Source: a virus
DNA length: 22,869 nt
Direction: 5' to 3' (one strand)
IMG/VR virus record: IMGVR_UViG_3300018048_000068
Span: 1 to 22,869 of that record
A program made the position numbers and the translations under genes. Shown here in pieces: positions 3,795-21,573 of this stretch; the stretch's first letter is position 1; each line of letters opens with the position of its first letter. The notes below the pieces were generated by a model that was given only the letters and a program-made list of their open reading frames with translations, was not told the origin of the DNA and did not search any database.

Positions 3795-5111
3795 ATGAGT
3801 TCAACTAAAACTACTAAAACTAAAGTAGGTACTAAAAATTGGCAACCTAATTTAGATATTACTCCAGAAGAACTCAAAGAAATGCAGGCACAAGTTGTTG
3901 ACAATATTATTATTGCTCGTGTGCGTCTTTTATTGCAACATCCATTCTTTGGCAACATGGCAACTCGGTTGCGTATTCAGGCAGCAGACGATTGGTTGCC
4001 TACTGCCGCTGTAGACGGACGTAACTTATATTACAATACTCAGTTCTTTAATGCAATGAACATTCAAGAAATTGAATTTGTTATTGCGCACGAAATTTTA
4101 CATTGTGTTTACGATCACTTAACACGCAGAGAAGATCGTAACCCAATGATTTACAACATTGCATCAGATTATGTTGTAAACAACCTTTTAGTTCGAGATA
4201 AAATTGGTCACAAACCCTCCATTGTAGATTGTTTCCAAGATTTTAAATACGATGGTTGGACTTCTGAAGAAGTGTACGACGATATATTTGAAAAATATGA
4301 CGAACAAGAATTGGAAGCACTAGGCGAATTACTAGACGAACACGTTGACTGGGAAAAAGATGGTCAAGCCAGTGGCGAAGGTAAAGACGGAAAAGAAGAA
4401 AACAAAGAGGGTAAAGAAGGTAAAGGTCGTCCATCATACTCAAAAGAAGAGTTACGTAAAATTCGTGACGAGATTAAAGAAAATATGATGACTGCGGCTC
4501 AAAGCGCAGGCGCAGGCAATGTCCCTGGTGATATTGCACGTATGATTAAAGAACTTACTGAGCCTAAAATGAACTGGCGTGAAATACTACGTCAACAAAT
4601 TCAATCAACAATTAAAAACGATTATACGTTTTCCCGTCCTAGCCGCAAAGGATGGCATACTGGTGCTATTTTGCCAGGTATGAACTATATGGATACTATT
4701 GACATTGCTATAAGTTTAGATATGTCAGGTTCAATTGGTGACGACCAGGCGCAAGACTTCTTAGGCGAAGTTAAAGGCATTATGGACGAATTTAAGGATT
4801 TCAATCTTAAACTTTGGTGCTTTGATACACAGGTTTACAACGAACAAGACTTTAGTGCAGACGGCAATGACGACTTGCTAGATTATGAAATCCACGGAGG
4901 CGGTGGCACAGACTTTATGTGTAACTGGAATTACATGAAAGAAAACGACATTCAGCCTAAGAAATTTATTATGTTTACAGACGGTTATCCTTGGGACTCG
5001 TGGGGTGATGCTGATTATTGTGATACAGTGTTTATTGTACACGGACATCGTGATAAGAATCTCCAAGCACCATTTGGTATAACTGCACATTATGAGGAGA
5101 GCCGTGCTTAA
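3795..5111 (+). CDS. DUF2201-type HExxH metallopeptidase-like protein with C-terminal VWA domain
   Basis: The 438-residue protein has two parts. The N-terminal half carries the zinc-protease signature HEILH (99-103) followed by CVYDH, as in the putative metallopeptidase domain of DUF2201 proteins. The C-terminal part is a von Willebrand A domain with a complete metal-ion adhesion site: DMSGS (309-313), a GGGGTD threonine (near 371) and TDGYPWD (near 396). The two are joined by a Lys/Glu/Gly-rich linker (about 190-230) that is probably disordered. DUF2201/VWA proteins pair with MoxR ATPases, matching the gene upstream. The start is put at ATG 3795 rather than 3789 because AAGGA (3783-3787) is 7 bases from 3795 but abuts 3789. 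Whether it is a working peptidase or a chaperone adaptor is unknown. Confidence 0.88.
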   Translation: MSSTKTTKTKVGTKNWQPNLDITPEELKEMQAQVVDNIIIARVRLLLQHPFFGNMATRLRIQAADDWLPTAAVDGRNLYYNTQFFNAMNIQEIEFVIAHEILHCVYDHLTRREDRNPMIYNIASDYVVNNLLVRDKIGHKPSIVDCFQDFKYDGWTSEEVYDDIFEKYDEQELEALGELLDEHVDWEKDGQASGEGKDGKEENKEGKEGKGRPSYSKEELRKIRDEIKENMMTAAQSAGAGNVPGDIARMIKELTEPKMNWREILRQQIQSTIKNDYTFSRPSRKGWHTGAILPGMNYMDTIDIAISLDMSGSIGDDQAQDFLGEVKGIMDEFKDFNLKLWCFDTQVYNEQDFSADGNDDLLDYEIHGGGGTDFMCNWNYMKENDIQPKKFIMFTDGYPWDSWGDADYCDTVFIVHGHRDKNLQAPFGITAHYEESRA

Positions 5112-5385
5112 ATTAAAAGAGCCTAATCCTTTAAACTTATTTGGTTTAAGAAGGCTAGATTTAGCGCCGCCTCACTTTGAGTGTATTACAATTCCGCTAT
5201 CATACAATTTAGAACAAAGTATTGAACGTTGGATTATAAAGAACTTAAAAGGACGGTTCTTTATGGTCAAAACTACGGGTGTAGACAAATCTGATACAAT
5301 AAATGTCTTATTTAAAATTGGATTTGAAGATAGGCGAGAACTAAGTCTATTCACTTTAGGGTGCCCACATTTAAAATATAAGTAA
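5104..5385 (+). CDS. Small conserved-type hypothetical protein, 93 aa (GTG start)
   Basis: The likely start is GTG 5104, 4 bases after GAGGAG (5094-5099); the in-frame ATG 5092 lies inside that ribosome binding site. The gene overlaps the end of the VWA gene by 8 bases, so it is probably coupled to it. The protein begins KLKEPNPLNLFGLRRLDLAPPHFECITIPL and has no membrane segment or known catalytic motif. I do not recognise its function. Confidence 0.65.
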   Translation: MLKLKEPNPLNLFGLRRLDLAPPHFECITIPLSYNLEQSIERWIIKNLKGRFFMVKTTGVDKSDTINVLFKIGFEDRRELSLFTLGCPHLKYK

Positions 5386-5388
5386 ATA
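5381..5388 (+). promoter_or_regulatory. Putative late-promoter-like element (AGTAAATA)
   Basis: The TAAATA core occurs 34 bases before the ATG at 5422, in the short gap before a run of small co-directed genes. It matches the late-type element less well than 1778-1785 or 6591-6598. It overlaps the stop codon of the preceding gene. Confidence 0.3.
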
Positions 5389-5421
5389 AAGTACGCATAT
5401 AAAATGCATAGGAGAAAAAAT

Positions 5422-5664
5422 ATGAGCGAAGAACAAGTTTCTGAAACATTAGAAGAAACAGCGGCACCAACCGCAGAGCAGCCAGCCGCAGGCGGTCCAG
5501 AATTAACAGTTAATGATCTTAACTTGCTCAAAGGTATCATTGACGTAGCAACACAACGTGGTGCATTCAAACCAAACGAAATGGTTACTATTGGTACAGT
5601 ATATAACAAGTTAGAAACATTCCTAACTGCTGTTGCACAACAGCAAAAACAACAAGGAGAATAA
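5422..5664 (+). CDS. Conserved-type phage hypothetical protein, 80 aa
   Basis: The start is ATG 5422 with AGGAG (5410-5414) 7 bases upstream; the in-frame ATG at 5404 precedes that site and is not favoured. The first 30 residues are acidic, Ala/Pro/Glu-rich and probably disordered (SETLEETAAPTAEQPAAGG). The rest, LTVNDLNLLKGIIDVATQRG through TVYNKLETFLTAVAQ, is helical. The pattern resembles a small protein recurrent in marine T4-like phages, but no function is known to me. It is followed by AAGGAG and the next gene with a 1-base gap. Confidence 0.75.
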   Translation: MSEEQVSETLEETAAPTAEQPAAGGPELTVNDLNLLKGIIDVATQRGAFKPNEMVTIGTVYNKLETFLTAVAQQQKQQGE

Positions 5665-5665
5665 C

Positions 5666-6277
5666 ATGGCTCTTAAACACGTAGGTAGAGTAAAAAGAAA
5701 TAATAGAAAAGTGGTAGTAGCATATCGTACACTTCCAGACGACGGTCAAAATTGTGTAGTTGTTACAACTGAAAATTTGGCTGCAGAAGAACACGATGCT
5801 CTAATGAAGGCTGTTGAATCAGACGCCGGTCAAAGTTCATACGAATTTGCAGAATGCATGGCTAGAACTACACTTCCAGACGGTAGCAATATGTTATCTA
5901 GATTCCATACTACTGGTAAAATGGTAAAACTACCAACATCTTCTGTTGAAATGACCCCTGACAGAGTAACTGTTATCAGTTTAGACGAATTGAATAACAC
6001 TATTGCTGAACAAAAGGGTGTTACTGTAGATGATCTTGCTTTAAAGGGTCCTACAGCGCAAAATAAGCCCGCTACAGCGGCGATGCCAGTAGTAGAGGAT
6101 GTAGCACCAGCGACTGTTACTGAAGCAGCAACAGACAGTGTTTTAAGCGATGAAGATCTAGCCAAATCATACCGTTCACAGGCAGACAGATTGAGCAAAG
6201 AAGCAGCAGAATTGAGACGCCAGGCTGAAGCATTGGTACCGACAAAGAAAGCCAAAAAAGAAAGTGTCCAAGCCTAA
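5666..6277 (+). CDS. Conserved-type phage hypothetical protein, 203 aa (possibly structural)
   Basis: The start is ATG 5666, with AAGGAG 6 bases upstream; an upstream in-frame ATG (5633) would overlap the previous gene and lacks a binding site. Residues 1-120 form a compact domain opening MALKHVGRVKRNNRKVVVAYRTLP. After that comes an Ala/Pro/Thr/Val-rich linker (about 127-165) and a C-terminal coiled-coil-like helix rich in Ala, Glu, Arg and Lys (QADRLSKEAAELRRQAEAL) ending in a Lys-rich tail. The layout (domain, flexible linker, coiled coil) would suit a virion or assembly protein, but that is inference. Similar proteins occur in marine T4-like phages to my recollection. Confidence 0.75.
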   Translation: MALKHVGRVKRNNRKVVVAYRTLPDDGQNCVVVTTENLAAEEHDALMKAVESDAGQSSYEFAECMARTTLPDGSNMLSRFHTTGKMVKLPTSSVEMTPDRVTVISLDELNNTIAEQKGVTVDDLALKGPTAQNKPATAAMPVVEDVAPATVTEAATDSVLSDEDLAKSYRSQADRLSKEAAELRRQAEALVPTKKAKKESVQA

Positions 6278-7187: not shown

Positions 7188-7943
7188 ATGCATAATATCA
7201 TTTGTTTAAACGTTGTAGAAGGTGCTAGAGGCCATCAAATAGGAAGGCTAATATCCTCTTGTGAAAACGTGCAATGGTATAATTGGACTGAAAATGGTTC
7301 TACACCATGGACTCCTAATAAAAATCCATCTACATCAAATCTAAGCATTTATCATTTTGATAGAAGATTTGATGGTGCAGTTGGCGTTGGAGTATGTGAC
7401 AAAACAGTTCCTCCTGTATTAGATTTTGCTAAACGCAACAAGTATGTTGAAATATCATTTGACAAGATACTCGATTGGGGTGCAACTGTTTATCCTAATA
7501 ATTTGTTATATGTTAGTCACTCTGATTTAGATCAATCAAAAGATTTTTTCCAGCACTGTAAACATATTGTTGTAATCAACGAAAACATTGACGAGATTGT
7601 TGAACGTTATCTTAAAACTACTGCTAACTTCATTTATTCTTGGACTCCGACAAACAGTGATGATTGGACAATAGAATGCCAACGACTAACATTTAAAGAA
7701 GCAGTAATGAAAGAACACCCTAACGTTGATTATACAGAATGGGTTGAAAATTATATCACAAAAAAACTAAAGAACTTTAAAGAAAACATAGGGCCTAATG
7801 ATTTTGTTATTTCAAGAATTGAAGATTTATTTGACCAGTCTATGTTTAAATCATTATGTAAAAAGTTTAACTTAACCTGTAATTCCGATAACTATAATAA
7901 AGTTTACAATTTTGTAAAGGACGATAACTATGCAAACAATTGA
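7188..7943 (+). CDS. Divergent P-loop/sulfotransferase-like protein of unknown function, 251 aa
   Basis: The N-terminus (IICLNVVEGARGHQIGRLIS) has a hydrophobic strand followed by a glycine-rich turn and helix, the layout of a nucleotide or PAPS-binding P-loop, but with no canonical GxxxxGK[ST]. An aromatic patch (NVQWYNWTENGSTPW) follows. The rest is alpha/beta with a Lys-rich helix near 200 (ITKKLKNFKENIG). Other genes in this island have comparable N-termini, so it may be a remote relative; this is a weak inference. Its start coincides with the predicted transcription start. It overlaps the next gene by 14 bases. Function unknown. Confidence 0.6.
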   Translation: MHNIICLNVVEGARGHQIGRLISSCENVQWYNWTENGSTPWTPNKNPSTSNLSIYHFDRRFDGAVGVGVCDKTVPPVLDFAKRNKYVEISFDKILDWGATVYPNNLLYVSHSDLDQSKDFFQHCKHIVVINENIDEIVERYLKTTANFIYSWTPTNSDDWTIECQRLTFKEAVMKEHPNVDYTEWVENYITKKLKNFKENIGPNDFVISRIEDLFDQSMFKSLCKKFNLTCNSDNYNKVYNFVKDDNYANN

Positions 7944-8463
7944 ATTGAATGAGTCTCATAAAAATGATATTTTAGAATTTTGTAAGTCTTGTCAGGAATT
8001 GGGTTATAAAAACAACGACTCGCTTTCTAGTATGAAATATGATTGGTGTTTAGAAAACGGAGGCGTTTGGTATGGATCTTTTTTGCAGGATAAACTAATA
8101 TCAGTTAGTGGTGTACATGATTTTCCAGAAATTGGTTCAAACGCTGTAAGGGTATTATTTAGAGGAGCACAGGTGTTTAATCCTTATCGAGGCTTAACAA
8201 AATATCATATGAATAGCATTCCATTTAGAGATCATTTACCTCTTGCAATTGAAAAGTTTAGTGAAAAACAATTATACATTACTAGCAATGTAACACACGA
8301 TGCTAGTGGTAAAATGAATATGATTCATCAAGTTATGCAAAAATTGCGCTCACACGGTATATTAACATTAACAGTAGAGTCAATGGAACTCTTTTATACT
8401 GAACAATCAGTATGGCGTGTTAATAAGGATACATATTTAAATGTCAGAAGCAAAGTTACTTAA
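7930..8463 (+). CDS. Putative GNAT-like acyltransferase, 177 aa
   Basis: GNAT enzymes move an acyl group from acyl-CoA (or acyl-ACP) to an amine. The strand pair GGVWYGSFLQDKLISVSGVH and the following VRVLFRGAQVF resemble the beta4-beta5 core of that fold, and length is normal for the family. The usual acetyl-CoA pyrophosphate loop (Q/RxxGxG/A) is not clearly present, so the call is tentative. The start has AAAGGA 8 bases upstream. The gene overlaps both neighbours (14 bases before, 23 bases after), so it is translated as a unit with the AMP-binding enzyme that follows, suggesting a shared acyl substrate. Confidence 0.5.
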   Translation: MQTIELNESHKNDILEFCKSCQELGYKNNDSLSSMKYDWCLENGGVWYGSFLQDKLISVSGVHDFPEIGSNAVRVLFRGAQVFNPYRGLTKYHMNSIPFRDHLPLAIEKFSEKQLYITSNVTHDASGKMNMIHQVMQKLRSHGILTLTVESMELFYTEQSVWRVNKDTYLNVRSKVT

Positions 8464-9157
8464 TCTGTTTAATACAGGTTGTACTATAAATTCGTCAGGT
8501 ACAACTGGCACGCCTAAAGAAATATTTAGAACACCCGATAATCTAAAATGGTGTGCTGATGCTGCTGTAGATTCTCAAGAAATATCATCGTCGTCAAAGA
8601 TTTATACTGTTTGCAAAATGTCTCATGCAGGCGGACTGTTAGCACAAACACTTCCTGGATTGAGGATTGGCGCTAGTGTAGACATAGAGCCGTTTAATCC
8701 ATATACATATTTTAAAAATTTAATAAACAAAAAATATACACACTCTCATTTAACACCCGGGCACTGCAAAGCACTAATGCAGACACACAGTTGGGACACT
8801 GTTGATTTATCAGGAATATGGATTACGTGCGGAGCAGATCCTGTTACTTGGGACATCATAGAAGGGTTTGTTTCTAAAGGTGCAACCTTTATGTCTAATT
8901 GGGGTATGAGTGAAATAGGACCTTGTGCTATTAACACAGTATTTAGATCTCAAGAAGATATAAATCTGTTTAAAAACAATCAAGGAACTATTTTAGGTAA
9001 TAGATTTTATTGTGATTGGAAAATAGAAAATCAGCAGTTGTATGTCAAAGGTAATCAATGTATATACAATGATTGGTTTGACACTGCTGATCTAGTTGTA
9101 AATTTACAAGACTGTTTATATTATACAGGTAGAATTAATTTATTACAGCAAACATAA
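8441..9157 (+). CDS. Minimal AMP-binding (ANL superfamily) adenylating enzyme, 238 aa
   Basis: ANL enzymes activate a carboxylate with ATP to an acyl-adenylate and often pass it to CoA. Core motifs are visible: the phosphate loop SSGTTGTPK (18-26, motif A3), NWGMSEIGP (153-161, A5), WFDTADLV (212-219, A7) and the hinge TGRIN (229-233, A8). The protein ends 5 residues after the hinge, so the roughly 100-residue C-terminal domain with the A10 lysine is missing, and about 150 N-terminal residues of a usual 450-550 residue enzyme are missing too. MenE-like ligases are the nearest compact relatives I know. AAGGA (8426-8430) precedes the ATG. It overlaps the GNAT-like gene and, tail to tail, the opposite-strand gene by 23 bases. 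The family is firm; substrate and activity are unknown. Confidence 0.82.
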   Translation: MSEAKLLNLFNTGCTINSSGTTGTPKEIFRTPDNLKWCADAAVDSQEISSSSKIYTVCKMSHAGGLLAQTLPGLRIGASVDIEPFNPYTYFKNLINKKYTHSHLTPGHCKALMQTHSWDTVDLSGIWITCGADPVTWDIIEGFVSKGATFMSNWGMSEIGPCAINTVFRSQEDINLFKNNQGTILGNRFYCDWKIENQQLYVKGNQCIYNDWFDTADLVVNLQDCLYYTGRINLLQQT

Positions 9158-9726: not shown

Positions 9727-10422
9727 TTATTTATCTAATATGCTTGTTAAATTATAATGGGCAATCGATACATCAAAATGCCAAAAACTGCCTTCTGGCA
9801 ATTGTCGCATTTCAAGTGAACGCATATAATTATCAAGTTCTTCTGTATCTCTATTTATGCCCCATACAGACTTCCAATACTTCTCTCTGGCTGTGTGTAT
9901 ATCTAAATCATGTTCTGCAATAAACTTTTTTATAGCCCTATTTTCTTTTTCAATTTCATACTTTAAAAATATTTCATCTTTATAGTATTTACTGTAGTTA
10001 GGGTATGTAATTTTTTCAAAGCCGCCAGCAGAAGTCCAACCTGCATAAGCACTAGCATCTGGTCTGTAAACCATAATGATACCTGCCTTTGGGAAAGTTT
10101 CTTTTATGAAGTCTAAATGTAAACTAAAATGATGGCATCTAACTAACTTGTATTGCCCTGTTTCAGCAAGATAAGCACTACTAATCTCTGATAATATTTC
10201 ATCTTTTGTCAAGGTATCTAAGCGATCAAATCGTTCGCCTATGCCATTGCCTGGACCAAAGAACGCACCTTGATGTGCTATTTTAACATCATCGTGATAG
10301 TAGTATCTATCTTTGCTGTAGTCTGAAGTATTAAACTTGCCCGTTTGGCAAATAATGTGGGAAGTTGCACTCCATTTACTACCCGGAGAACCAGTAAAAA
10401 ATATTAACTTACTTTCATCCAT
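9727..10422 (-). CDS. Sulfotransferase-like P-loop protein, paralogue B
   Basis: The 231-residue protein opens MDESKLIFFTGSPGSKWSAT: a strand, then GSPGSKWS (11-18), where sulfotransferases have the 5'-phosphosulfate loop. Further on, QYKLVRCHHFSLHLDFI and GIIMVYRPDASAYAGW resemble the 3'-phosphate-binding region. It shares GxPGSxWS, the GAFFGPGxGxGxxFD segment, the VYRPD strand and GGFxxxxYPxYSxY with the proteins at 10975-11568 and 19892-20590. The start is put at 10422, not 10476: this places the P-loop at the same residues as in the 10975-11568 paralogue and leaves only an 8-base overlap (ATGGATGA) with the methyltransferase, whereas 10476 adds 18 unrelated residues. Sulfate transfer is inferred from motif layout only. 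Confidence 0.68.
   Translation of the reverse strand: MDESKLIFFTGSPGSKWSATSHIICQTGKFNTSDYSKDRYYYHDDVKIAHQGAFFGPGNGIGERFDRLDTLTKDEILSEISSAYLAETGQYKLVRCHHFSLHLDFIKETFPKAGIIMVYRPDASAYAGWTSAGGFEKITYPNYSKYYKDEIFLKYEIEKENRAIKKFIAEHDLDIHTAREKYWKSVWGINRDTEELDNYMRSLEMRQLPEGSFWHFDVSIAHYNLTSILDK
9728..9735 (-). promoter_or_regulatory. Possible late-promoter-like GATAAATA on the minus strand
   Basis: GATAAATA reads on the minus strand 20 bases before the ATG at 9707. It includes the last codons of the preceding gene (GAT AAA TAA, coding Asp-Lys-stop), so it may be coincidence. Recorded because the same octamer occurs at 1778 and 12337. Confidence 0.25.
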
Positions 10423-10972
10423 TCTTAAGCCAGGTCCAGCGTTTACGTTTGCCCATTCCTTCAGTATCATATACAATAGGTTCTACAAGGAACGAGAAAT
10501 TGTATTTTTCTGTAAATTCGTTAAGCATACCAGGTGCCCAACCACAATGTCGTTTATTAGGAAATTGACCTAGTGCAATTCGCATTTCAATAATGCCTCC
10601 AGGCTTACACCAACCAACAATTTTATCTATATTTTCTCTAATATAATCATGACTAATAAACTGTATGCTACCTAGAGACAACACAACGTCTGCACACTCT
10701 GGTTCAAACTCTGCATCTAATATTGTTGACTGAAAATCAATATCTGGAAACGGTGACGGATCAAACCCTATCAAATTTGGTATATACGCCTTATGTGGAT
10801 TACGGCCGCATCCTGCATCAATTACCAATGAAGGATTTCTTGCATTAACTCGTTCATAGAGTTCTTGTAATCCTGCATTTTCTTGAAAATGATCACCTCT
10901 CCAGGTTACTGGATCAAAACGTTTAGTTAGGATATCATTATCGTAATATAAATCGTCTGTCATATCTGCCAT
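10415..10972 (-). CDS. SAM-dependent methyltransferase, paralogue B (class I-like)
   Basis: Motif I is LVIDAGCGRN (49-58), followed by IPNLIGFDPSPFP, a motif II acidic residue at D71, and ADVVLSLGSIQF (94-105, motif IV). WCKPGGIIEMR (121-131) is the usual post-motif strand. At 185 residues it is compact, with little beyond the SAM-binding core, so the acceptor is not predictable. It clearly resembles the methyltransferase at 19228-19857 (shared VIDAGCGxN, NLIGFD, PFP, LGSxQF, KPGG) and less closely the one at 11577-12317. AAGG lies 8 bases before ATG 10972; a second ATG at 10963 is possible. It overlaps the sulfotransferase-like gene downstream by 8 bases and follows the previous gene by 2. 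Confidence 0.85.
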   Translation of the reverse strand: MADMTDDLYYDNDILTKRFDPVTWRGDHFQENAGLQELYERVNARNPSLVIDAGCGRNPHKAYIPNLIGFDPSPFPDIDFQSTILDAEFEPECADVVLSLGSIQFISHDYIRENIDKIVGWCKPGGIIEMRIALGQFPNKRHCGWAPGMLNEFTEKYNFSFLVEPIVYDTEGMGKRKRWTWLKNG

Positions 10973-10974
10973 TA

Positions 10975-11568
10975 TTAAACCTTAACTATAGTTACTAAAC
11001 AGTCGTGAAACGTGTCAAATTTTACATGGTCTATGTTACTAACATCAAATACTTCTTTAAAGAATTTGGTATTAAAATGATACCATGTACAATCATGCTT
11101 ATGTGCAAACTCTAATATACATCTATTTTGTTCTGCAATTTCGGCATGCATTTTAGTACTGTTTCTATAAGAACTATAGTCTGGATATTTGATGCTGAAC
11201 CCACCTGCTTCGTGCCACCAGGCAAGGCTAACTGTATCTGGACGATACACTAACATAATCCAATCAGTAGGATACTTTTCTTTTATTTGATCCAGCACAT
11301 GAGCCCAATCGTGACTTTTAATTAGTCTAGTGCCGCCATCGTCTTTCCAAGGCCTATCTAGATATTCAGGATTGTCTAAGTATGCTTCATACTCCATACC
11401 AACACCAAAGTATGCACCTTTGTGTCCAGAGAAAGCATGATGGCTGTATTCTTTAGATGGGTCTCTGTCCGATGTGTTTAGATTTAGTTGTTCTTCAAGT
11501 ATTTGTGCAATACCGCTCCAACGACTTCCTGGCACACCTGTAAAAAATATTCTGTTTGGATATTTCAT
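10975..11568 (-). CDS. Sulfotransferase-like P-loop protein, paralogue A
   Basis: Residues RIFFTGVPGSRWSG (6-19) give a strand plus GVPGSRWS loop at 11-18. LIKSHDWAHVLDQIKEKYP and WIMLVYRPDTVSLAWW follow, resembling the KSH and R-x-P-x-D elements that hold PAPS in sulfotransferases, and then GGFSIKYPDYSSY and an ExAEQNR helix. At 197 residues it is short next to typical sulfotransferases (about 250-300). AAGGA lies 6 bases before ATG 11568. It is 8 bases downstream of one methyltransferase and 2 bases upstream of another. The family membership is moderately supported by motif layout and by two close paralogues in the window; donor and acceptor are unknown. Confidence 0.68.
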   Translation of the reverse strand: MKYPNRIFFTGVPGSRWSGIAQILEEQLNLNTSDRDPSKEYSHHAFSGHKGAYFGVGMEYEAYLDNPEYLDRPWKDDGGTRLIKSHDWAHVLDQIKEKYPTDWIMLVYRPDTVSLAWWHEAGGFSIKYPDYSSYRNSTKMHAEIAEQNRCILEFAHKHDCTWYHFNTKFFKEVFDVSNIDHVKFDTFHDCLVTIVKV

Positions 11569-12421: not shown

Positions 12422-12465
12422 AATTGTGGTATATACAATGCTATCTAACTTAATAAGGAGTGAAA

Positions 12466-13524
12466 ATGAAGCGTTTAATTTTAACTTTAGCAATGGTACT
12501 AGGCATTGCTACTCCTGCACTTGCTGACTATACACTTATAGTTCCACAAGAGCCAGGAAAAGGTACTAGTGTATGGGGCGGTATTATTGCTAAGAACCTT
12601 AGTAAGTTTACCGACGAGCCAGTAGTAGTACGCCATATTCCAGGCGCACGTGATATCCCAGGTTATAACAAGTTCCATAACGAACTACGTTTTGACGACA
12701 AGACTATCATGGTTGCACATGGCGGTAATGGTGTGTCATTCTTGCTTGACAAGGTTGATTACAACTACTTTGAATACGACTTAATTGGTTCTATGAACAA
12801 CGATATCGTTCTTGGTAAGCACAAAGGTGCAAACGAAAAGAAAGGTAACTGGAAGATTGCTGGCGGATCAGGTTTTGAACCAGACGGTGCGGCAGTTGCT
12901 ATGTTGCTTTGTGGTCCACAAGGTAGTGGTACCGTTGACGAGTACTTAAAGTGCTGGCGTGAACGTGCTACTTGGATCAACGGTGTAGGTGGCGGCGAAA
13001 AGCGTCTAGGCTTTAAAAACAAGGAGTTTGATGTTGCTCGTGAATCACCAGCGGCTTGGAACAAGTTTTATAAGCACATTGAAGAAAACGAATTGTGGTT
13101 TACACATGGTATTCTTGATCTAAAGAACAAGCGTCAAATGGCTGATCCTAACTTCCCAGGCACACAGTTTGAGGAGAAGTATAAAGCACTTTGGGGCGAA
13201 TATCCAAAAGGTGATTTGTATAATGCATACAAACTAACTCGTAACTGGCGTGATGCTATTCAAAAGTCACTATGGGTAAACAAGGGCAATCCAAATACCG
13301 AAAAACTTCGTACTGCTCTTAACAAGATGATCGCAGATCCAGAATCATCAGCAGAAATTAAGAAACTTGCTGGCGACTATCCTTGGATTGTTGGCGATGA
13401 CGGTCCTGCAATGCTTGCAGTTCTTAAGTCTTTGATCACTGAAAAAGCTCTTAAAGATGCTGTTAAGTGGAACCAGGAAGCATACGGTTTCCCTTCAGTA
13501 TACAAGCCAGAACTTTTGAAGTAA
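12466..13524 (+). CDS. tctC: TctC/Bug-type periplasmic solute-binding protein of a tripartite tricarboxylate transporter
   Basis: Bug proteins capture carboxylates (such as citrate, other di- or tricarboxylates or aromatic acids) in the periplasm and hand them to TctAB. The first 20 residues, MKRLILTLAMVLGIATPALA, are a textbook Sec signal with an ALA cleavage site, so the mature protein begins DYTLIVPQEPGKGTS. The N-terminal strand and GKGTSVWGGIIAKNL, then VVRHIPGARDIPGYN, follow the usual Bug order, and total length (352) fits. The start is ATG 12466 with AAGGAG (12455-12460) 5 bases before; the GTG at 12460 overlaps that site. The permease follows after 17 bases. A host-membrane transport gene is unusual in a phage; the ligand cannot be read from the sequence. 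Confidence 0.85.
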   Translation: MKRLILTLAMVLGIATPALADYTLIVPQEPGKGTSVWGGIIAKNLSKFTDEPVVVRHIPGARDIPGYNKFHNELRFDDKTIMVAHGGNGVSFLLDKVDYNYFEYDLIGSMNNDIVLGKHKGANEKKGNWKIAGGSGFEPDGAAVAMLLCGPQGSGTVDEYLKCWRERATWINGVGGGEKRLGFKNKEFDVARESPAAWNKFYKHIEENELWFTHGILDLKNKRQMADPNFPGTQFEEKYKALWGEYPKGDLYNAYKLTRNWRDAIQKSLWVNKGNPNTEKLRTALNKMIADPESSAEIKKLAGDYPWIVGDDGPAMLAVLKSLITEKALKDAVKWNQEAYGFPSVYKPELLK

Positions 13525-13541: not shown

Positions 13542-15050
13542 ATGCTTGAATACGTAATGTGGGCGGTTATTGGTACCGTTTATGGAATGGTCGTTGGAGT
13601 TGTTCCTATTGCGGGGGTTACCACTGCCCTCATCACAGTGTTTAGTATGGGGCCATACTTTTTATCAGATCCGTATGCGGGTCTGGTATTCCTTACAGCA
13701 ATTGTAGCAAGTTGTGCAAGTGCCGATAGTTATACTAGTATCCTTACTGGTATTCCTGGTGCAAGCACAACTGCTGCTTGCGTCATTGATGGTTATCCAA
13801 TGGCAAAAAGAGGAGAGGCGGCTCGAGCAATGGGCATAGCAATTGCAGATAGTACGTTTAACGGCGTTCTATATGCATTGCTTGCTTTTTTGCTACTACC
13901 GTATTACGGTAAAATTATAGGACTATTTGGACGTCCTGAATTTTTAGGGTTTATGATGATGGCACTTGCTTGTGTAGGATTTGTTGCAAGTAAGCGAGTG
14001 TTTTCAAGTATTATTGCAATTACATTAGGTCTGTTTATAGGATTAATAGGACAGAACAGCGTAGGATCACCTAGATTTGCGTTTGGCTGGGAGTACCTTG
14101 AAGCAGGCGTAGGGATGATTGCATTACTTTCAGGTCTGTTTGGTATTCCTGAATTATTAGATGGTTTTAAATATGGTAAAACTGCGGCGCCACCAATGGC
14201 TGTTGAAAACTATTGGCCTCAATTAAAACAAGGTTTTAGAGATGTGCGCACAAACTGGCGAGATATGGTTCGTGGCGGTTTTATTGGATTCGTAACAGGA
14301 CTACTACCAGGTGTAGGAGGTGCTGTTGGAGACTTTTTAGCATACGGTGCAACTAAGGCTGCACATAAAGAAAAACAAGAAATTCCATTTGGTGAAGGCA
14401 ATCCAATTGGACTACTAGGATGTGAAGGTGCAAACAATGCACAAAAAGTTTCTAGTATGATTCCTGCTGTACTATTTGCTATTCCAGCGGCGCCATTTGC
14501 GGCAATGGTAATGGCTATTGCAATTTACTTTGGTATGGAAATTGGTAGACCTAGTCTACTAACAGACGAAAAGTTTGTAACTAGTATTGCATTTGGATAT
14601 GTGTTTGGTACTATAGGTGTTGCTCTATTAAGTATTTTTATGTATAGATGGATTATTAAAATCCTTGAAGTACCTTATTGGATCTATGCATCAGTCATTC
14701 TTGCTGTTATTGTCTATGCTAATATGCAGTATACTCAAGGTTGGGAAGATCTTGCATTACTAGGTATTTTAAGTGCTATTGGCGTAGTGTTAAAACATTA
14801 CAAAATTAGTAGGCCGGCAATTTTAGTTGCATATGTTGTTGCATTTAAGATTGACGAGTATTTTTACGGCACACTACAATTGTATGGTTACAAACAATGG
14901 AAATCATTTCCGGAATCATTTGAAGGATTCCGTTGGGGTGAACTCTTTAGCATTACAGAGCATCCGTTGTTTATTCTCTCTATAATCATCTCTGTAGGCA
15001 TACTCATAAATAGTATAGTTAGAAAAGACAGAGGTATAGATTTCACATGA
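13542..15050 (+). CDS. tctA: TctA-type large permease subunit of a tripartite tricarboxylate transporter
   Basis: This 502-residue polytopic inner-membrane protein has the TctA length and signature. Near the N-terminus it shows VVGVVPIAGVTTAL and the loop LTGIPGASTTAACVIDGYPM followed by AKRGEAARAMG, and the second half repeats the motif as GFVTGLLPGVGGAVGDFLAYG, in keeping with the two-fold pseudo-repeat of the family. About ten to twelve hydrophobic segments are visible. AGGAAGG lies about 7 bases before the ATG. The small subunit TctB, usually encoded between tctC and tctA, is absent here. The stop overlaps the next start (ATGA), so the transporter and the tailoring genes that follow are in one transcriptional unit. 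Probably powered by ion gradient, as in the family. Confidence 0.92.
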   Translation: MLEYVMWAVIGTVYGMVVGVVPIAGVTTALITVFSMGPYFLSDPYAGLVFLTAIVASCASADSYTSILTGIPGASTTAACVIDGYPMAKRGEAARAMGIAIADSTFNGVLYALLAFLLLPYYGKIIGLFGRPEFLGFMMMALACVGFVASKRVFSSIIAITLGLFIGLIGQNSVGSPRFAFGWEYLEAGVGMIALLSGLFGIPELLDGFKYGKTAAPPMAVENYWPQLKQGFRDVRTNWRDMVRGGFIGFVTGLLPGVGGAVGDFLAYGATKAAHKEKQEIPFGEGNPIGLLGCEGANNAQKVSSMIPAVLFAIPAAPFAAMVMAIAIYFGMEIGRPSLLTDEKFVTSIAFGYVFGTIGVALLSIFMYRWIIKILEVPYWIYASVILAVIVYANMQYTQGWEDLALLGILSAIGVVLKHYKISRPAILVAYVVAFKIDEYFYGTLQLYGYKQWKSFPESFEGFRWGELFSITEHPLFILSIIISVGILINSIVRKDRGIDFT

Positions 15051-15802
15051 GACATAAAACTAATTGGCAGAAGAAACTTGCTGATCCTTCAGAATACAAA
15101 AGTAACTGGGATTGGACAGTAGCACACAGTGAATATCATTTTGATATTAACAAAGAAGATAAGGTAGGCGACTGGTTTGATATTTTAGGTACATTTGATA
15201 ATCCTGAATTATGGAAGGCTGAACGCGATGCTATCGTAAAAGAAGCATATCCTATTAACTGGGAAACTAGAAAATATTACGGAGATAATGATGAAGTATC
15301 ACCAATGCTTGAACAAGAAGAATACGATATTGCACAAGGCGGCACAAATCCTAAAGAATTAATGCTTACTAATTTGTATGACAAATTAGAATACGAACCA
15401 GAAAAATTTCCTGTACTTACTAAGATGGCAAACTACTTTGGTTTAGACCTTGGTTATGGTAGTGCAACTAAGAAACGTATTCATGCACAAATGCCTGGAC
15501 AAATGTTTAACTTGCATATAGACAAGTTATGGGATCGTGATCCCGTAGATCCAGAACGTGTTGCTCGCATTACAGTTTTCTTAGAAGATTGGAAACCAGG
15601 ACAATTTTATATGTATGGTAACTATGTTTACTCGCATTGGAAAGCAGGCGAGGCACATATATTTGACTGGCCTAACGTTCCACACGCTACTGCTAATGCT
15701 AGTAACGACATACGTGTAAGTTTACAATTAACAGGTTTTAAAACAGAAAGAACAAGACGTTTAATTAATAATGCAAGCGTTAATAATGTGTTTAAGATCT
15801 AA
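15047..15802 (+). CDS. Fe(II)/2-oxoglutarate-dependent oxygenase-like protein, paralogue 1
   Basis: The 251-residue protein carries an iron triad HxD...H: H157-I-D159 in NLHIDKLWD and H213 in NVPHATAN, with R223 ten residues after the distal histidine, where such enzymes bind the 2-oxoglutarate carboxylate. The surrounding pattern (MPGQMFNLHID, VFLEDWKPGQ, SHWKAGEAHIFDW, RVSLQLTG) is like aspartyl/asparaginyl beta-hydroxylase-type jelly-roll oxygenases. It is paralogous to the proteins at 16442-17128 and 20587-21573. Translation is coupled to tctA through ATGA. The substrate is unknown; hydroxylation of a small molecule, lipid, glycan or peptide is possible. The fold call rests on motif geometry. 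Confidence 0.78.
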   Translation: MRHKTNWQKKLADPSEYKSNWDWTVAHSEYHFDINKEDKVGDWFDILGTFDNPELWKAERDAIVKEAYPINWETRKYYGDNDEVSPMLEQEEYDIAQGGTNPKELMLTNLYDKLEYEPEKFPVLTKMANYFGLDLGYGSATKKRIHAQMPGQMFNLHIDKLWDRDPVDPERVARITVFLEDWKPGQFYMYGNYVYSHWKAGEAHIFDWPNVPHATANASNDIRVSLQLTGFKTERTRRLINNASVNNVFKI

Positions 15803-16441: not shown

Positions 16442-17128
16442 ATGCAAAGACCTAACGCAGAAAATTTTACAAGCAATTATGAGTGGTCAAAGAGTATTAG
16501 CAAATATCACTTTGATGACACAGTTATTGATCAACCAGGCGAATGGTTTCAAGATTTAGGAAATATCCGTGGTGATTGGAATGATGAACTTGAACGTATC
16601 ATTGTAGATGCTCCTGAGAGAACCTGGGCTACAAGAAAATCAGAAAATCAAAAAAATAGATTTCTAGCAATGGAATTAAATGACATTGCTGAAGGCGGCG
16701 GAAATCCAAATGCTGTTATTTCTAGACTAGGTTACAACGTAGAAGATTATCCTAAAGTTAATCGTATAGCAGATTTTTTTGAATTAGAAAATGTACAAAA
16801 AAGACTACACGTACAATTAACTGGACAGTTATGGCATTTACATCTTGACAAATTGTATCACGTAGATAAAATACACCCAGACAGAATTGTAAGAATTATG
16901 ATTATGTTAACTCCTTGGACTCAAGGACATATATACCAATATGGAACAACTTATTATTCTCATTGGAAAGCCGGTGATGTTCATATTTTTGATTGGATGA
17001 ACACTCCACACTCAACTGCTAATACAAGTTACAAACCTCGTGTAACTTTGCAATTAACAGGAATTAAAACTTCTAAAACACAAGAAATAATAGATAACGC
17101 ACCTTATACTTTTCCGGACATATTATGA
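16442..17128 (+). CDS. Fe(II)/2-oxoglutarate-dependent oxygenase-like protein, paralogue 2
   Basis: The 228-residue protein repeats the layout of the 15047 gene: H134-L-D136 in HLHLDKLYH, H190 in NTPHSTAN, and R200 ten residues later. The N-terminal region also matches (NYEWSKSISKYHFDD against NWDWTVAHSEYHFDI), as does the stretch SHWKAGDVHIFDW and the final LQLTGIKT. All three iron ligands and the 2-oxoglutarate arginine are present, so it looks active. It is shorter by about 23 residues, mainly in the middle region before the HxD. The stop overlaps the start of the next gene (ATGA). Separate retention of both copies suggests different substrates or a heteromer; this is inference. Confidence 0.78.
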   Translation: MQRPNAENFTSNYEWSKSISKYHFDDTVIDQPGEWFQDLGNIRGDWNDELERIIVDAPERTWATRKSENQKNRFLAMELNDIAEGGGNPNAVISRLGYNVEDYPKVNRIADFFELENVQKRLHVQLTGQLWHLHLDKLYHVDKIHPDRIVRIMIMLTPWTQGHIYQYGTTYYSHWKAGDVHIFDWMNTPHSTANTSYKPRVTLQLTGIKTSKTQEIIDNAPYTFPDIL

Positions 17129-17498: not shown

Positions 17499-17714
17499 AT
17501 GAAGTACTTAGACTTCAAACATTTAAAACATACAAAGACTTCGTATTTCACACATCTGTTTTATGCTACAAAATTAAATATCCTAGCACTATTAGTGTTT
17601 ATAACTGGAACTATACACAGTTTTATACCAATACTATTTCCTTACACTCCGTATAAGTTAGCAAAAAAGATTGTTGATGTAACCGAAGAGAAGTTTGGCA
17701 AACCGTTAGATTAA
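17499..17714 (+). CDS. Small membrane protein resembling DUF6356, 71 aa
   Basis: The pattern YFTHLFYATKLNILALLVF then GTIHSFIPILFPYTPYKLAK resembles the DUF6356 family, in which an FxH...A helix is followed by an IHxxxPxxF segment; members are found near capsule and surface-polysaccharide genes and in phages. One clear membrane segment and a second shorter one are visible, with an amphipathic C-terminal helix. AAAGGA precedes ATG 17499 by about 9 bases. It is 1 base upstream of the carbamoyltransferase. The family call is from memory of the pattern. Confidence 0.6.
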   Translation: MKYLDFKHLKHTKTSYFTHLFYATKLNILALLVFITGTIHSFIPILFPYTPYKLAKKIVDVTEEKFGKPLD

Positions 17715-17715
17715 T

Positions 17716-19167
17716 ATGATATTAGGAATAAACAGTTTAAATCACGATGCTAGTGTTGCACTGATTAATAACAAAGACATACTATTTGCTGCTCATGCAG
17801 AGCGTTATAGTAGAATTAAAAACGACAAAACATTAAACAAAGATATCATTGCCGAAGCACTTACATACGGAACACCTGAAAAAATAGTTTGGTTTGAAAA
17901 GCCTTGGGCTAAAAGTGCAAGGAAACTATATTCAGGAGAACGTCCTTGGTTAGAACGTCCTAAGCAAGAACTCAAACGTTTAGGTTTAGGTAACATACCA
18001 TTTGAAACAGTATGGCATCACGAAGCTCATGCTGCCGCAGGATACTTTACTAGTCCATTTGAAGAAGCAGCCGTATTAGTTATAGATGCTATAGGCGAAT
18101 GGGATACATTATCTATATGGCACGGTAAAGGTTCTAAGTTAACAAAAAAATTCTCAATTAAATATCCAGATAGTATTGGATTATTTTATACTGCATTTAC
18201 TGACTGGGCAGGACTAAAACCTAATGAAGAAGAATATATCTTTATGGGTATGGCAGCATATGGAAAGCCGTTGCTATATGAAGATATTAAAAAAGAATTC
18301 TTTTGCGAATGGAAACCACCTTACTTTCAATTAACTAAAAATTTACATAGAGGCATTAAAGACTGGCAAATGCCTAAAGGCGTAACAGCATATGATGTTG
18401 CGGCTTCTGTACAAAAAATTGTAGAAGAATTTATATTAGAAACTGTAACATACATTAAACAAACTATTGACAGTGATAATCTAGTGTACATGGGCGGCGT
18501 GGCACTAAATTGTGTTGCTAATACGTTAATTGCAGATTCTAAGTTATTTCAAGACATTTGGATAATGCCTAATCCAGGTGACTCTGGTTCAGCAATTGGA
18601 TCAGTTGCAGCATATACAAATGAACACTTGCACTGGACTAGTCCGTTTTTAGGAACCAACATAGGCATAGAATACGACCCTAGACAAGCAGTAAAAGAAC
18701 TATTAACAACAGGCATTGCTGGTTTAGCAACAGGTCGTGCAGAATTTGGTCCAAGAGCATTTGGTAATAGAAGTCTTATTGCTGACCCTAGAACGTTTGC
18801 TAACAAACAAAAAGTTAATGACATTAAACAAAGACAACAATTTAGACCATTTGCACCTGCTATCTTAGAAGAACACGCACATAGTTACTTTGATATGAGT
18901 GTTAAAACATCGCCATATATGCAATATACATTTAAATGTTCTAGACCTGATAAAATTCCTGCTGTTGTACATTTTGACAATACTAGTAGAATACAAACTG
19001 TAGCAAAAGGCGACGGACATTTTAGAGAGTTACTCGAACTATGGCACAAAGAAACAGGATGTCCAGTATTATTAAACACTAGCCTAAATATAAAAGGCGA
19101 ACCACTAGTAAATAACATAGATGATGCATTACGTTGGTCTAAGAAATATAATGTAAAAGTATTTTAA
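17716..19167 (+). CDS. NodU/TobZ-type O-carbamoyltransferase
   Basis: The 483-residue protein begins MILGINSLNHDASVALI, the ATPase-like N-terminus of the NodU/CmcH/TobZ family, with HDAS at 10-13, the metal-binding HHEAHAA (about 100-106) and VIDAIGEWDT following. The C-terminal YrdC-like part shows AEFGPRAFGNRSLIADPR, RPFAPAILEEHA and LNTSLNIKGEPLV, all family signatures. These enzymes make carbamoyl-adenylate from carbamoyl phosphate and ATP and transfer carbamoyl to a hydroxyl of a sugar or antibiotic. The protein is somewhat shorter than TobZ or NodU (about 560-600). No Shine-Dalgarno is visible; the start lies 1 base after the previous stop, so it is probably coupled. It is the last gene of the tctC operon. 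The acceptor is unknown. Confidence 0.9.
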   Translation: MILGINSLNHDASVALINNKDILFAAHAERYSRIKNDKTLNKDIIAEALTYGTPEKIVWFEKPWAKSARKLYSGERPWLERPKQELKRLGLGNIPFETVWHHEAHAAAGYFTSPFEEAAVLVIDAIGEWDTLSIWHGKGSKLTKKFSIKYPDSIGLFYTAFTDWAGLKPNEEEYIFMGMAAYGKPLLYEDIKKEFFCEWKPPYFQLTKNLHRGIKDWQMPKGVTAYDVAASVQKIVEEFILETVTYIKQTIDSDNLVYMGGVALNCVANTLIADSKLFQDIWIMPNPGDSGSAIGSVAAYTNEHLHWTSPFLGTNIGIEYDPRQAVKELLTTGIAGLATGRAEFGPRAFGNRSLIADPRTFANKQKVNDIKQRQQFRPFAPAILEEHAHSYFDMSVKTSPYMQYTFKCSRPDKIPAVVHFDNTSRIQTVAKGDGHFRELLELWHKETGCPVLLNTSLNIKGEPLVNNIDDALRWSKKYNVKVF

Positions 19168-19891: not shown

Positions 19892-20590
19892 ATGGATAAT
19901 AATTATAAGTTTACGTTTGTTGCAGGTGCACCTGGAAGTGCATGGAGCATGATTAGTTTTAGAATGAAAATCACTGTTCCAGGTTATGACAAGTCTGACC
20001 AAACGGCAGAAAGACAGTATGACTTACCTGAAGCACACGCAAAAAATAATTATGACGTTAAAGACCGTTCAACCTGGAAGGCTAAAACGCACATTGGTAG
20101 TTACTATGGACCATATCATGGATTAGGTGACCAGTTTGACGACCTTACTTACTATAACGGAAATGTTGAAGGATTCTACGATGAATGTTTACGTCCATTT
20201 AACGATACAACAAAACCTAGAAAGTTAGTTAAATCACATTGGTTTGCATATAACTTAGATTGGTTGTGGGAAAACTGTAAAGGACACGATTTAATGTTAG
20301 TGTGGCGTGAAACTGACGCTGCTGATAAATGGTGGCATACTATGGGCGGCTGGGATATTAAGCATCCTGTATACGACTGGTATGTTGACGATGAACGTAT
20401 GCACAAACAAATTGCTATCGAGTCTGACAATATTTGGGAGTTTGGTGAGCGTAAAGGTGTTAAATGGTTAGACTACGACGTTAATGATTCATGGATACAA
20501 AAACGTTTTGGTGTTCCTTTCCTCAAAAAAGTTCAAGCAACACCTAAATTTGAGGATACAATCAAGATAGGATACATTACAATAACATGA
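19892..20590 (+). CDS. Sulfotransferase-like P-loop protein, paralogue C
   Basis: The 232-residue protein shows FVAGAPGSAWSM (9-20) as its loop, the SYYGPYHGLGDQFDDL segment, RKLVKSHWFAYNLDWLW, then DLMLVWRETDAADKWWHTMGG and IKHPVYDWY. Each has a counterpart in the proteins at 9727-10422 and 10975-11568. The KSH and WRxTD elements are in the place of the sulfotransferase 3'-phosphate-binding motifs. AGGAG is 6 bases before the ATG. It follows a methyltransferase, as the other two copies do, and overlaps the start of an oxygenase by 4 bases. Enzyme class is inferred from motif layout, and an inactive or different P-loop transferase is possible. Confidence 0.68.
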   Translation: MDNNYKFTFVAGAPGSAWSMISFRMKITVPGYDKSDQTAERQYDLPEAHAKNNYDVKDRSTWKAKTHIGSYYGPYHGLGDQFDDLTYYNGNVEGFYDECLRPFNDTTKPRKLVKSHWFAYNLDWLWENCKGHDLMLVWRETDAADKWWHTMGGWDIKHPVYDWYVDDERMHKQIAIESDNIWEFGERKGVKWLDYDVNDSWIQKRFGVPFLKKVQATPKFEDTIKIGYITIT

Positions 20591-21573
20591 GCAAGTTAAT
20601 GAATAAGATCATTCCACATGAGGAATGGGTAGAATTACAAAAAGATCTTACTGCTAGACAACAGGTTTGGGAGAAGGCAAGAGATTTACACAAACAAGGT
20701 TTAGGACCTAAACCAGGTCCTGTACCACGTAACTGGAACGATCCAGATACAGGAAAAGCAAGTCGTTGGTTACAAGCAAAAAGTTTTAGTAACTACGATG
20801 AAACAAGATTTGGTCCTGATCCTATAGATACTGTAATTGATAGATTGGGTATATTTGAAGGTTTTGACTTTAATGCAGATATTAAACACGCAGAAGAAAA
20901 CAGTTACGGTCCTACTACTCTAATTGATCGTACAGGAACTCCTGAATACAGAGATAAAAATAGTTCACACTATCCTATTACTATGGTTAACGATGCTGAT
21001 AAAGCAGGTGTTAATCTCGATGAAATGCCAATGTTTGATAGTTCACGTTGGATTAACGATCCGCATCAAGGCTGTCAAGCAATATCTGACTTTATTGCAC
21101 TAGACTATGAAAATGCTGACAAAGGCGCAAAGCGTGAGTACGGTTACGATAGTTTTCATATTCAACGTCCAGGGCAAATGTTGATGTATCATCATGATTT
21201 GTACTATGCTGTTATACGTGATGCAGATCCTGAATTATCATGGAAGCCTGAAAAATTAAGACGTTTTGTTATTTTTATGGAAGACTGGCGTCCTGGGCAT
21301 GTATGGATTGTAGGTAACACTGAATACAGTCATTGGCGTAAAGGCGAATGCATTACATGGAACTGGCAAGATATGCCACACGGTACTGCAAATCTAAGTC
21401 CTGTTCCACGTTATAGTATACACTTAACAGGTTACATGTCTGAACGTAGTTTTAAGTTTCACGAAAAGGCAAACAAAGATACACGATATAGACGAGATGC
21501 AGAAGGTAATTGGAAAATTACTCAAGTACAAGAAGATGGAACAGAAGTTGAAAGGATTGACTTCTGGGACTAA
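20587..21573 (+). CDS. Fe(II)/2-oxoglutarate-dependent oxygenase-like protein, paralogue 3 (long form)
   Basis: The 328-residue protein has the same active-site layout as the two shorter paralogues: H202-H-D204 in MYHHDLYY, H265 in DMPHGTAN and R275 ten residues later, with FMEDWRPGHVWIVGN, YSHWRKGECITWNW and HLTGYMSERS around them. It carries an extra N-terminal region of about 70 residues and a charged C-terminal tail (RYRRDAEGNWKITQVQEDGT). The start overlaps the preceding stop (ATGA). It is the last gene of the rightward unit and is closed by a strong terminator. The substrate is unknown; pairing with a methyltransferase and a sulfotransferase-like gene suggests successive modification of one molecule. 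Confidence 0.78.
   Translation: MSKLMNKIIPHEEWVELQKDLTARQQVWEKARDLHKQGLGPKPGPVPRNWNDPDTGKASRWLQAKSFSNYDETRFGPDPIDTVIDRLGIFEGFDFNADIKHAEENSYGPTTLIDRTGTPEYRDKNSSHYPITMVNDADKAGVNLDEMPMFDSSRWINDPHQGCQAISDFIALDYENADKGAKREYGYDSFHIQRPGQMLMYHHDLYYAVIRDADPELSWKPEKLRRFVIFMEDWRPGHVWIVGNTEYSHWRKGECITWNWQDMPHGTANLSPVPRYSIHLTGYMSERSFKFHEKANKDTRYRRDAEGNWKITQVQEDGTEVERIDFWD

Follow-up and report, generated by a model that had tools for sequence, protein, structure and literature searches.

Enzymes of the ANL superfamily are generally described by a model in which the C-terminal domain rotates between two states and its A10 lysine drives adenylation; it is mainly for the adenylation half-reaction that this lysine is required. 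Closely related to the protein reported here are MenE (o-succinylbenzoate-CoA ligase) and related acyl-CoA synthetases, and also isolated N-domains of ANL enzymes. The N-domains of FACL13 (5zrn/3t5c), BasE (3o83) and FadD23 form a stable fold without the C-terminal domain, and that of FadD23 alone is almost inactive (PMC9989471). No work on an isolated luciferase N-domain was found in the open-access literature searched, and the open-access papers on DUF6356, on truncated or C-domain-less ANLs and on viral AMP-binding genes yielded no description of a half-size ANL architecture. We analyzed such a half-size protein, referred to as mini-ANL, which is encoded in a 22,869-nucleotide stretch of viral DNA (IMG/VR record IMGVR_UViG_3300018048_000068; hereafter, the window).

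The mini-ANL gene is located on the plus strand at 8441..9157, runs from an ATG start to a TAA stop codon, and encodes 238 aa. Pfam AMP-binding (PF00501) matches the product with an E-value of 1.3e-14 and 54.2 bits (gathering score 29.9), the match spanning only model positions 170-336 of 384; all 34 members of a family alignment match PF00501 at E <= 0.1. The characteristic ANL residues of A3 to A8 are present, namely the A3 P-loop SSGTTGTPK (residues 18-26; 8492..8518), the A4 histidine His62 (8624..8626), the A5 glutamate in the motif NWGMSE (residues 153-158; 8897..8914), the A7 aspartate in WFDTAD (residues 212-217; 9074..9091) and the A8 arginine in Gly-Arg (residues 230-231; 9128..9133), all on the plus strand. 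In A5, a W is found where Tyr is usual. The original prediction of a short but motif-complete ANL protein is borne out by the presence of A3, A5, A7 and A8 within 238 aa, and it had placed the end of the protein correctly at 5 residues past the hinge: the C-terminus lies 7 residues beyond the A8 Arg, or about 5 beyond the hinge position. The nearest full-length ANLs (~493-512 aa) carry 159-166 residues ahead of A3 and another 100-113 beyond the A8 Arg, and compared to them the window protein lacks ~145 residues in front and ~100 behind.

Searching viral contigs with the window protein yielded 10 relatives, and with the family alignment 53, while a search of genome contigs gave 50 bacterial loci in SAR11, Methylophilaceae, SAR116, gammaproteobacterial MAGs and others. 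Once duplicates were collapsed, 88 distinct relatives remained, 38 of them viral and 50 from bacterial genomes, and 86 are complete. The complete members are 226-269 aa long and have 12-52 residues before A3, mostly 15-32, where full-length ANLs carry the N-terminal subdomain of ~160 residues. After the A8 Arg only 1-18 residues follow (median 2), and the C-terminal domain with the A10 lysine is absent from all 86. Since the boundaries are the same in every relative, the short form is not due to chance. Same-length homologues in marine phages, a check proposed with the original prediction, were thus found at 38 viral loci, and the suspicion that all homologues might be full length failed, as each of the 86 complete relatives is short.

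A size of about half that of a normal ANL would also result from a truncated pseudogene or a sequencing frameshift, the latter being the event named beforehand as capable of overturning the prediction. The probability of this explanation is negligible. The same length recurs in 86 independent complete sequences, and pairwise dN/dS values lie between 0.04 and 0.24 (21 viral and bacterial pairs), which confirms the expectation that the gene is under purifying selection and unlikely to be decaying. In addition, no continuation of mini-ANL was found in other frames: the frames upstream belong to a GNAT-like gene, and downstream there is a coding frame on the opposite strand. Frame inspection and the low dN/dS values together led us to reject frameshift and decay.

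The mini-ANLs are a discrete family, as indicated by the gap in score that separates them from full-length ANLs. Among 274 gammaproteobacterial genomes, the single mini-ANL was retrieved with an E-value of 4e-89, compared to 1e-20 or weaker for full-length ANLs, and a similar gap was observed in genomes of the SAR11 family. Full-length homologues at the family level were not found in our searches, including these 274 genomes. The original prediction had missed that the family is not confined to phages and is also present on the chromosomes of SAR11 and other bacteria. The idea that it is a core gene of SAR11 was rejected because of its scattered occurrence, the gene being carried by 2 of the 147 genomes from the SAR11 family and by 1 of the 61 from the genus. 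At the SAR11 locus, mini-ANL is flanked on one side by an SDR/DUF6356 pair and on the other by a glucose/sorbosone dehydrogenase gene, and a photolyase-related gene, FolD and HemC are close by; these surroundings indicate that the gene is chromosomal there. A tree of the 86 proteins requires 7 or more switches between the viral and the cellular label, of which 4 or more are forced by well-supported branches, and the gene has been passed repeatedly between viruses and bacteria. Three loci counted as bacterial (L069, L100 and L111) may represent pieces of viral DNA within MAGs. An IMP dehydrogenase/GMP reductase-like gene was seen beside mini-ANL in L069 (4986-6023; PF00478, E 1e-60) and L111 (4926-5963), whose contigs are binned as bacteria and may be viral. 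The gut phage records MT839182, MT835484 and MT835721 also appeared as relatives by tblastn and were rejected, as they contain ordinary full-length ANLs (552-563 aa, or one within a 758-aa frame), and the contigs carrying them are unannotated and look bacterial.

The AlphaFold model of mini-ANL (pLDDT 93.7, pTM 0.90) confidently predicts an ANL half-domain. Its best Foldseek match is Staphylococcus aureus MenE (3ipl, E 1e-13), and VIA-align gave a Z-score of 22.4 for 5ie2 and, over 227 residues, one of 20.7 for 3ipl; the alignments cover 227-232 residues at 2.5-3.1 Å. Profile-profile comparison with nearby full-length acyl-CoA ligases gave an E-value of 1.7e-37. Mini-ANL corresponds to the second half of an ANL N-domain, that is, the P-loop, the acyl/adenine-binding subdomain and the beta-barrel.

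As mini-ANL ends exactly at the hinge, and as enzymes have often been split in the course of evolution, the C-terminal domain could be supplied in trans, as the original prediction had suggested. We consider this quite improbable. When 9 bacterial genomes and 4 virus records were examined for AMP-binding_C (PF13193), every match fell within a frame of 470 aa or longer, the sole exception being a 79-aa frame at a contig edge, and no match at all was obtained in virus records of 383, 159 and 103 kb. The suggestion was therefore not borne out, as no stand-alone C-terminal domain was found in the bacterial genomes and virus records searched; these genomes are incomplete, and within this limit the missing domain weakens the in-trans reading. 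A minority of the viral loci (L039 and L055-L060) encode a second ANL of ~380-393 aa, which is short at the front and has its own C-terminal domain (for example, L039 10841-11983 and L055 11323-12504).

Alignment of the complete members revealed residues that are invariant in 86 of 86: G20, Q46, S52, T56, G65, Q69, P72, F85, H101, G131, N153, W154, G155, M156, E158, G160, P161, I164, N165, G186, G204, W212, T215, D217 and R231. In the P-loop, G20 is accompanied by S19 (85/86) and by T21, G23 and K26 (83/86 each); the A4 histidine His62 is found in 85/86 and is a His in the nearest full-length ANLs as well. The P-loop, A4 His, A5 Glu, A7 Asp and A8 Arg are thus invariant or nearly so, and common to full-length ANLs, and the predicted ATP/AMP-contact residues are invariant in the family. 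A second group, consisting of Q46, S52, H101, H103, N153, W154 and N165, is family-specific and differs from full-length ANLs. His101-x-His103 (8741..8749, plus strand; H103 in 83/86) occupies positions that are hydrophobic, aromatic or small in full-length ANLs (L/W/A at 101; V/S at 103, with one His). Both histidines align with the strand preceding the conserved proline that lines the acyl pocket in luciferases and 4CL. By this alignment and the structures of those enzymes, H101 and H103 are likely to be at acyl-pocket positions.

The most constant direct neighbor of mini-ANL is not the GNAT-like gene but a gene for a small membrane-type protein of the family DUF6356, which the original prediction had missed. 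In the window, this gene (17499..17714, plus strand; 71 aa; PF19883, 29.6 bits, cutoff 24.4) stands apart from mini-ANL. PF19883 was also above its cutoff in one bacterial and one viral homologue (30.1 and 26.7). Directly upstream of mini-ANL, and usually overlapping it, a DUF6356 gene is found at 23 of the 38 viral loci and at 33 of the 50 bacterial ones, numbers that rise to 27 and 35 when more distant copies in the fetched stretch are included. A NodU/CmcH-type carbamoyltransferase gene (17716-19167; Pfam E 1e-50) starts 2 bases after the DUF6356 gene of the window; enzymes of this type act via a carbamoyl-adenylate. In L055, a flavin-dependent tryptophan-halogenase-type gene (4669-5835; PF04820, E 2.7e-60) lies directly upstream of DUF6356 and mini-ANL, and a similar gene is present in L056, L057 and L060; these loci are a group of marine viral contigs. 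In other Alphaproteobacteria, no ANL match was found beside DUF6356, so that no clue to a pathway was obtained from them.

The GNAT-like gene, which the original prediction had pointed out as overlapping, is a recurrent neighbor in viruses. It is located at 7930..8463 on the plus strand, overlaps the start of mini-ANL and encodes 177 aa. Such a gene was found near mini-ANL at 35 of 38 viral loci. The protein has no Pfam GNAT match, and the acyl-CoA-binding motif Q/R-x-x-G-x-G/A is not clear by eye. Its GNAT fold is predicted from the structural model (pLDDT 93.6), for which the top 50 Foldseek matches listed are GNAT or GNAT-like acyltransferases (best E 8e-6, TM 0.5-0.65), among them AHL synthases and FeeM, an N-acyl amino acid synthase. 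Upstream of it, a gene on the plus strand (7188..7943) encodes an unnamed protein of 251 aa with an N-terminal GxxGHxxGR motif and no Pfam match above cutoff; this gene is present at 32 of 38 viral and 0 of 50 bacterial loci. At the viral loci, the GNAT and GxxGHxxGR genes accompany mini-ANL in varying order. That the order is shuffled and the set nevertheless retained argues for a functional connection rather than mere synteny. The gene neighborhoods link mini-ANL to DUF6356 and, in phages, also to the GNAT-fold protein. PADLOC revealed no link of the cassette to defence.

Several other genes in the window were recorded. A TctA transporter gene (13542-15050; PF01970, E 1.4e-84) follows a gene that appears TctC-like by eye (12460-13524) on this phage contig, and TctA also occurs at 15 of the 38 viral mini-ANL loci. 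The proteins encoded at 9727-10476, 10975-11568 and 19892-20590 have a common 'F.G.PGS.WS' start; one gave a weak sulfotransferase match, and none has a Pfam match above cutoff. Those at 15047-15802, 16442-17128 and 20587-21573 are related to each other and resemble 2-oxoglutarate oxygenases by eye, with no Pfam match.

Taken together, we propose that mini-ANL is a minimal ATP- or adenylate-handling enzyme that acts with DUF6356 and, in phages, with the GNAT-fold protein, a reading to which we assign a probability of roughly one half. Mini-ANL would bind ATP: the invariant nucleotide contacts point to ATP or an adenylate, and the conserved P-loop to ATP itself rather than only AMP. A pocket putatively lined by His62, His101 and His103 would then be the place where a small polar acid is converted to its acyl-adenylate or held in that form. 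Mini-ANL may do so at the membrane, together with DUF6356. In phages, the GNAT-fold protein could belong to the same pathway, along which the activated group, or something made from it, would be handed on. As there is no A10 lysine, the pocket histidines or a partner protein would have to take over catalysis. Neither partner is universal, since the GNAT-fold gene is near mini-ANL at only 2 of 50 bacterial loci, and no DUF6356 gene turned up in 8 of the 12 bacterial genomes searched for one, most of which were picked because DUF6356 is not beside their mini-ANL. The more specific prediction, namely a stand-alone adenylate-forming enzyme of ~230 residues without front subdomain or C-terminal lysine domain, with a histidine pocket and DUF6356, carried by marine phages, SAR11 and other bacteria, is put forward tentatively, at somewhat less than even odds.

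The near-inactivity of FadD23 without its C-domain (PMC9989471) speaks against a minimal enzyme. If a conventional ANL loses almost all activity in this way, either the family-specific histidines or a partner compensate, or the protein is a binder. Mini-ANL might accordingly be a non-catalytic binder of ATP, AMP or an acyl-adenylate, serving as a sensor, a chaperone or a regulatory subunit of a membrane complex with DUF6356. The combination of invariant nucleotide contacts with the loss of the A10 lysine domain in all 86 complete members fits this explanation, and the invariant residues could also serve pure binding. We nevertheless regard it as unlikely, because the conservation of a P-loop, which in ANLs handles the ATP phosphates, and of the polar pocket residues H62, H101, H103 and N165 exceeds what simple nucleotide sensing needs. 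Less probable still is that mini-ANL transfers or hydrolyzes a pre-formed adenylate delivered by another enzyme, such as a full-length ANL of the host. No adenylation half-reaction, the step that the C-terminal lysine mainly serves, would then be needed; the bacterial carriers possess full-length ANLs, and L039 and L055-L060 have the second viral ANL with a C-domain. The invariance of the P-loop would be left without a reason, however, and the second ANL is confined to a minority of the viral loci.

Compared to a conventional ANL enzyme, mini-ANL has lost the C-domain and half of the N-domain under natural selection while keeping the nucleotide contacts. It thus offers a test of how much of the ANL fold is needed, and assaying it would show how little of an ANL enzyme still works. 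DUF6356, a family of unknown function, is now assigned a conserved gene linkage. The mini-ANL family itself is conserved but unnamed: this gene of marine viruses and some SAR11 has no name in current profile libraries.

MenE and related acyl-CoA synthetases share the A3, A4, A5, A7 and A8 residues with mini-ANL and differ from it by the additional 100-113 residues after A8, which form the C-terminal domain with the A10 Lys, and by ~145 additional residues before A3. The NCBIfam cutoffs for acyl-CoA ligase equivalogs are far from reached (best 55.8 bits vs. 476 for PRK06187), as is that of menE (25.1 vs. 330). An N-terminally shortened MenE (NF005877/PRK07824, 362 aa) starts ~47 model positions before A3, like mini-ANL, and provides a precedent for losing the front half. 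It keeps the C-terminal end, however, as its 362-position model runs ~100 positions past the matched region, and the match of the mini-ANL family to NF005877 is weak (E 0.0066). The N-domains of FACL13, BasE and FadD23 are laboratory constructs of ~390-440 aa that, unlike mini-ANL, retain the front half. The acyl-CoA synthetase PRK08308 (414 positions) and the AMP-dependent CoA ligase DVU_1553 (331 positions) are short ANLs with weak profile similarity, but these models are much longer than 226-269 aa and mini-ANL scores far below both cutoffs. Mini-ANL should be regarded as a derivative of the ANL superfamily N-domain and classed as a half-size variant rather than as an acyl-CoA ligase; two defining features of ANL enzymes, the C-terminal domain and the front subdomain, are missing.
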